Of a stretch of 35,369 nucleotides of DNA, positions 3,703-17,042 are shown piece after piece; the stretch's first letter is position 1; each line of letters starts with the position of its first letter. Source of the DNA: Nanobdellota archaeon (lineage in GTDB: Archaea; Nanobdellota; Nanobdellia; Parvarchaeales; Parvarchaeaceae); contig JAJZWM010000006.1 of NCBI GenBank assembly GCA_021846665.1, positions 1 through 35,369 of the forward strand, in the 5' to 3' direction. A program made the position numbers and the translations under genes. The notes under the pieces are model-generated. The model ran no database searches, was not told the DNA's origin, and worked only from the letters and a program-made list of their open reading frames with translations.

Positions 3703-3797
3703 GTCGGGGTGACCGAACGGTAAGGTGCATGCCTGCTATCCAGAAACGGAAAGCATGTTGGCGCAAGCCTTAATGGGTTCAACCCCCATCCCCGACG
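3703..3797 (+). tRNA. tRNA-Ser(GCT) with a 13-nt intron (about 3739-3751)
   Basis: Acceptor GTCGGGG/CCCCGAC; anticodon stem CATGC/GCATG around a 20-nt loop CTGCTA[TCCAGAAACGGAA]A; long variable arm GGC-GCAA-GCC; T arm ATGGG/CCCAT; discriminator G. Confidence 0.9.
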
Positions 3798-15964: not shown

Positions 15965-16096
15965 TTATTCTTCGTCAATGTCATCCGAATCGTCTAAATC
16001 ATCATCTTCTAAGTCTTCGTCGTCCAATCCGTCTAGTTCATTTTCTTCGATGATTTCATCGTCGTCTTCTACTTTGTTCTTGTCCTTTTTGGTCAT
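15965..16096 (-). CDS. 43-aa ultra-acidic protein (MTKKDKNKVEDDDEIIEENELDGLDDEDLEDDDLDDSDDIDEE)
   Basis: Internal ATG preceded on the minus strand by GGGAGGTTAAT (strong SD); the longer track start (16219) has no comparable signal. Confidence 0.6.
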   Translation of the reverse strand: MTKKDKNKVEDDDEIIEENELDGLDDEDLEDDDLDDSDDIDEE

Positions 16097-16240
16097 ATTA
16101 ACCTCCCTGGTTTTGTTTTGCGCTCTGCCACTAAGCTTTACTTTTAAGAGATACATATCCTTTATAAATTTTTCTATAATTTGAAAATTTGTAATTATTT
16201 TAAGTTTTATTTTTTGCAATAATTAGATATTAATTATCAA

Positions 16241-16288
16241 AAGGTGAGCGAGAAAGCCCACATTCTTTATAGGTGGGAGGATGTCACA
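16241..16288 (+). mobile_element. Solitary IS200/IS605 (TnpB-type) right-end / omegaRNA-scaffold-like relic
   Basis: AGCGAGAAAGCCCACATTCTTTATAGGTGGGAGGATGTCAC: CCCAC/GTGGG hairpin plus AGGATGTCAC tail typical of TnpB-element right ends; no tnpB adjacent. Confidence 0.55.
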
Positions 16289-16318: not shown

Positions 16319-16639
16319 ATGGCAGTATATAGAAATGATGGAAAAAGATTCAAGAGAGATTTTGATTATCTAATAAAAACTGCAAAGGAAGACAAGAGTC
16401 TTTCAGAAAGGTATACTTACATAGCTAAAAGAATATTGCTGTCTAAAAAGATAAGATTATCAAAAGAAGAAAAGTTTTTAATATGTAGAAGCTGTAATAG
16501 ATTACTTATACCTGGAGTTAATTGCAGGATAAGATTAAAGCAAGGTTTTTTAACCTATAAATGCTTAAATTGTGGAAGTGTTAGAAAGGTAAAATATGAT
16601 AAGAGGGTACGACGTAAATCAAATAGAATTAGTGAATGA
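16319..16639 (+). CDS. rnp4: Ribonuclease P protein component 4 (Rpp21/Rpr2)
   Basis: ICRSCNRLLIPGVNCRIRLKQGFLTYKCLNCGSVRKVKY zinc-binding signature. Confidence 0.88.
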   Translation: MAVYRNDGKRFKRDFDYLIKTAKEDKSLSERYTYIAKRILLSKKIRLSKEEKFLICRSCNRLLIPGVNCRIRLKQGFLTYKCLNCGSVRKVKYDKRVRRKSNRISE

Positions 16640-17042
16640 AATCGCAAAGAAACTAGAGGAAGAAAATTTAACTCCACCACCAGAATGGGCATTGTTTGTA
16701 AAAACCGGTTCAGCGAAAGATAGAGTACCTTCGCAAGATAATTGGTGGTATCTGCGTGCAGCAAGTATATTAAGAAGAATGTATACTAATAAAAAACCGA
16801 TAGGCGTTAACCGTTTAAGGAATATCTATGGAGATAAGGAAAAGAATAGATACAGTGGTAGGCATTTCAAGCCTGCAAGCGGTGCAATAATAAGACATAT
16901 ATTACAGGAACTAGAAAAAGCAGAGTTGATTAAAAAAGTAAAGGTACAAGATCATTTTGGGAGGGTTCTAACTCCAAAAGGCATATCCTTTACGGATAAG
17001 GCAGCTAAGGAAACAGCCAAAAAATATGGAATATCAGAATAA
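16596..17042 (+). CDS. rps19e: Ribosomal protein S19e
   Basis: PPEWALFVKTGSAKDRVPSQDNWWYLRAASILRRMY...VNRLRNIYG; overlaps rnp4 by 44 nt. Confidence 0.95.
   Translation: MIRGYDVNQIELVNEIAKKLEEENLTPPPEWALFVKTGSAKDRVPSQDNWWYLRAASILRRMYTNKKPIGVNRLRNIYGDKEKNRYSGRHFKPASGAIIRHILQELEKAELIKKVKVQDHFGRVLTPKGISFTDKAAKETAKKYGISE

Follow-up and report, generated by a model that had tools for sequence, protein, structure and literature searches.

Terminal-only derivatives of IS200/IS605 elements have been described in the haloarchaeon Haloquadratum walsbyi, whose PATEs include 52-bp forms that originate from deletion of the core between 22-bp or 19-bp repeats; the mobility of these terminal-only forms was left open (PMC3119063, 2011). 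In IS608, the guide tetranucleotide AAAG is associated with TTAC and GAAT with TCAA (PMC5934647).

Our analysis of one locus in a 35,369-nucleotide stretch of DNA from a Nanobdellota archaeon (the whole stretch is called the window here) indicates that the 50-bp segment at 16238–16287 on the plus strand is very probably a complete terminal-only IS200/IS605 derivative of the TnpB type, in which a left end is fused to a right end (LE::RE). It is the same kind of element as the terminal-only PATEs of H. walsbyi (HqIRS46, ISHwa23; PMC3119063), from another lineage, and as such real but ordinary. Both are about 50 bp long and have fused IS605-type ends with one near-terminal palindrome, and both lack a transposase and a target duplication. 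The H. walsbyi forms derive from deletion between direct repeats of 19 to 22 bp, and such deletion in place was observed directly between Haloquadratum strains, whereas for the window copy we infer it; the archaeal lineage and the target, TTAT/TTAA, also differ. With IS608 and ISDra2, the IS200/IS605 elements that carry tnpA and tnpB, the element shares subterminal hairpins and a tetranucleotide target kept on the left; 5' of the hairpin there is likewise a putative guide tetranucleotide, and over the family as a whole, guide and target vary together. In contrast to those elements, it has no genes, and its hairpin is single where they have two. REP elements, with their TnpA-REP (RAYT), are also short dispersed hairpins tied to a Y1 transposase family; unlike in these, both regular IS605 ends are recognisable in the window element, and its parents carry tnpB. 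Hence, terminal-only IS200/IS605 remnants, known from a haloarchaeon, extend to small acidophilic archaea.

Parts and homology of the element

The element (CAAAAGGTGAGCGAGAAAGCCCACATTCTTTATAGGTGGGAGGATGTCAC) consists of the start of a left end, a single hairpin and the tail of a right end, all on the plus strand. It is preceded at 16234–16237 by TTAT, which lies outside the element in the left flank and stands 5' of the left end in nearly all copies of the genus. The left-end remnant CAAAAGGTGAGCGAGAA (16238–16254) matches the left ends TTTATCAAAGGTGAGCGGGAAAACCCAC of full and deleted tnpB elements, and the putative guide tetranucleotide AAAG (16253–16256) directly 5' of the hairpin was assigned from the guide/target table of all loci and from the IS608 guides (PMC5934647). 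The common hairpin CCCAC ... GTGGG (16257–16277) corresponds to the direct repeat of full elements, and the tail AGGATGTCAC (16278–16287), with the right cleavage site TCAC, is identical to the tails found downstream of tnpB. Terminal inverted repeats are absent; the hairpin is located inside the ends as a palindrome near the termini, and the outermost GTGA and TCAC are complementary across 4 bases only, as in other copies. At 50 bp, the element is below coding length.

A preliminary description of this DNA had reported a solitary right-end hairpin of a tnpB-type IS200/IS605 element at 16241–16288. Reading the sequence confirmed the hairpin and its tail at that place, and the family assignment stands as well. 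The feature is indeed located there, but its true extent is longer than noted, and the term "solitary right end" has to be replaced since the left part is the element's own left end.

A profile built from 18 related copies, with the window copy excluded, matched 16240–16287 with E = 2.4e-15; the second-best match in the window had E = 1.3, and the best over 20 shuffled windows had E = 1.7. Furthermore, the tail pattern GGGAGGATGTCAC was present in 8 of 36 genomes searched, all eight belonging to the genus of the window, while a reversed-pattern control gave 0 matches in the same 36 genomes. The tnpB elements of the genus begin with left ends of the form TTTATCAAAGGTGAGCGGGAAAACCCAC...GTGGGATGAAAGCGAAC and finish with right ends of the form GGAAGCCCAC...GTGGGAGGATGTCAC, which have the same ending as the window segment. 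The copies fall into two classes: some are right ends that immediately follow a tnpB gene, and others, the window copy among them, are solitary and have a GTGAGC head. The solitary copies occur at several sites of one genome with unrelated flanks; in these copies, the initial portion of a left end is linked through one hairpin to the terminal portion of a right end.

Pairing in the stem was found in 92% of cells over 19 copies, compared to 45 to 59% in slid controls, and two inner pairs change on both sides; as the pairs had been defined from the same sequences, the comparison is somewhat biased toward the stem. In the window copy, the inner stem has lost one pair that other copies have. As an isolated RNA, the stem is not unusually stable (folding energy z = 0.16), and therefore, the case for the element rests on homology and on the empty site in relatives, not on folding energy. 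In nearly all parsed copies, the left guide changes with the target, TTAT occurring with AAAA and TTAA with AAAT; exceptions are few, and the pattern by analogy fits the IS608 logic of single-strand transposition. The window copy, with a TTAT target and an AAAG guide, fits with regard to the target and not the guide, and it is among the few exceptions and unparsed copies of the guide/target table. The last base of its guide is right-end-like, most left ends of the genus having AAAA, and AAAG next to TTAT is a better fit for TCAC, on the right, than for the left site. This suggests that the window copy may not be excisable.

The insertion site upstream of rnp4

The element lies 31 nt before the start codon of rnp4 (16319–16639, plus strand; PF04032, E = 6.2e-14), which encodes the RNase P subunit Rpr2/Rpp21 and is followed by rps19e (16596–17042; PF01090, E = 1.6e-43). 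A homologue of Rpr2/Rpp21 was found in 28 of 28 genomes of the genus. The placement ahead of rnp4, as first described, is correct, and the remnant may lengthen the mRNA leader.

Alignment of the spacer before rnp4 from the window and 11 of its closest relatives revealed that the segment is missing in all 11, and no full copy was present at this position in any of them either. Joining the window flanks as AATTAT|ATTATTAAT restores a sequence that is continuous in the relative G003 (15 of 15 bases, a local match). The right flank ATTATTAATAAA directly adjoins the element. The left spacer of the window has about 11 to 12 extra AT-rich nucleotides, where the alignment is ambiguous, and the left boundary TTAT|CAA was fixed by other copies, not from the window site alone. 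Judged from these junctions, the element is inserted 3' of TTAT without target duplication.

Divergent from rnp4 is a small acidic ORF of about 44 amino acids (15968–16099, minus strand) without a Pfam match. A similar acidic frame is visible upstream in those relatives whose locus was read in the rnp4 orientation, and the start region of the ORF aligns across the 11 relatives aligned at the rnp4 spacer. Elsewhere in the window, Rfam detected a tRNA at 3703–3797 on the plus strand (42.2 bits) that was missed by ARAGORN; its length of 95 nucleotides suggests an intron.

Origin of the fused ends

In full tnpB copies of the genus, the hairpins of the two ends resemble each other, and therefore, deletion between them gives exactly such fusions. 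In the genome G022, MAS3.bin115, an exact 22-bp direct repeat, CCCACACTCTTTAGAGGTGGGA, is shared by the left end L219 with two right ends, L217 and L218; these ends lie on separate contigs, and we infer their pairing into one element. The same genome has five solitary copies (L212 to L216); L212 to L215 are identical and represent the exact fusion of the ends, and L216 has one change. The architecture of the window copy is found in copies of both G022 and G049.

In our model, a tnpB-carrying IS200/IS605 element with near-identical hairpins in direct orientation at its two ends would have inserted, in the lineage of this genome, 3' of TTAT into the spacer upstream of rnp4-rps19e. Everything between these hairpins, including tnpB and the omegaRNA scaffold, would then have been lost by recombination or replication slippage from one hairpin to the other, and the product would be the 50-bp fusion, in which a single hairpin joins the start of the left end to the tail of the right end. 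The deletion would have taken place in situ, and the remnant is presumably inert now. No full-length copy was encountered at an orthologous locus, the relatives aligned at the site all being empty. The earlier view of a decay product without tnpB is right, but an excision scar in the strict sense it is not, because excision by TnpA restores the empty site.

That the hairpin is a retained standalone RNA, either omegaRNA-like or a leader regulator of rnp4-rps19e, had also been considered in the preliminary description. Its position so close to the rnp4 start codon and the intact outer stem would be in line with such a role. However, a profile of 13 tnpB right-end regions matched only the last 34 nt of the window segment (E = 1.9e-4), and a scaffold-only profile, from which the end had been removed, gave no match in the window (best E = 9.8), whereas it recognized two control right ends with E = 5.8e-11 and 1.1e-9. 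The segment thus lacks the omegaRNA scaffold that lies upstream of a right end, and it is very probably not a standalone guide RNA. A conserved leader RNA is contradicted by the 0 of 11 aligned relatives that carry the hairpin at this locus, and a known RNA family by an Rfam search without a match at the site; the lost inner pair and the insignificant folding energy add to this, so that we consider a retained RNA of either type very improbable. An isolated right-end hairpin should not be taken for a guide RNA. Even further from our expectation, to the point of being practically negligible, is a chance resemblance or an unrelated short repeat: the segment is short, but the profile match, the negative shuffles, the reversed-pattern control and the empty sites in relatives all speak against it.

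The more serious competitor is a 50-bp form that is itself a mobile mini-element and was brought here as such by a Y1 TnpA acting in trans. The four identical copies L212 to L215 have unrelated flanks, eleven similar solitary copies were read in LSA5.bin73, the genome G049, solitary copies are present in MAGs labelled with several archaeal phyla, and a possible mobilization of 52-bp forms was suggested for Haloquadratum (PMC3119063). On the other hand, one hairpin provides one guide, while by the IS608 logic the left (TTAT/TTAA) and right (TCAC) sites need different ones, and the AAAG of the window copy fits TCAC, not TTAT. The solitary copies of G022 match the end type that has the long perfect direct repeat. 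Moreover, the own genome gave no match to a Y1 TnpA. Two genomes of the genus, G008 and G009, have Y1 TnpA genes, but a motif search revealed no matching ends around them, for which reason these genes were rejected as movers of the element. Arrival as a mobile mini-element is conceivable but doubtful, and we favor deletion in place over mobilization of the short form. The wider proposal, that the single-hairpin form of about 50 bp is a transposable unit served by Y1 TnpA in trans and passed between archaeal phyla (small archaea and Thermoplasmata), appears unlikely to us. If true, the form would rank as a mobile DNA of very small size, and one hairpin could serve both ends. Given the number of copies, its mobility is testable by strain comparison.

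Copies in the own genome and in other archaea

The window belongs to a draft genome of 39 contigs (G000), in which other copies do exist. One clear full tnpB copy with HTH, OrfB_IS605 and TNB domains is located on contig C37, and an internally deleted copy of about 209 bp (L230, C28:3861-4069) retains only the left end, the first tnpB codons and a degenerate right end. A covariance model, for which the window copy was part of the training set, found only these two and the window copy in G000 at E <= 0.001. Whole, internally deleted and ends-only copies thus form a full series in one genome. The C37 copy was rejected as direct parent of the window element, since its hairpins differ in sequence. 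In G049, L244, L246 and L247 are short deleted elements with left and right ends about 150 to 350 bp apart; their left hairpin has an additional GCCCTCTTCAGAGGG insertion, which is found in 0 of 11 solitary G049 copies read.

Outside the genus, L257 in the Thermoplasmata MAG G047 shares the end motifs, has the order LE, tnpA (Y1), broken tnpB, RE, and is an autonomous relative. When genome contigs were scanned with the pattern, 34 matches resulted, of which 32 lie in MAGs with an archaeal label; the two others, L124 (Actinomycetes) and L149 (Ruminococcus), differ in their inner sequences and are probably due to chance. About 30 further copies stand in archaeal-labelled MAGs, assigned to Micrarchaeota, Nanoarchaeota/Parvarchaeota, Marsarchaeota and Thermoplasmata, these being depositors' labels with mis-binning possible. 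As groups, these archaea are generally known from acid habitats. Viral contigs gave 0 matches to the pattern, and viral carriage of the element was rejected on this basis. In each of two pairs of copies, L142/L154 and L147/L151, one solitary insertion recurs with unchanged flanks in a second MAG, the two MAGs being YP3.bin112 and clean615, and therefore, some copies are inherited.
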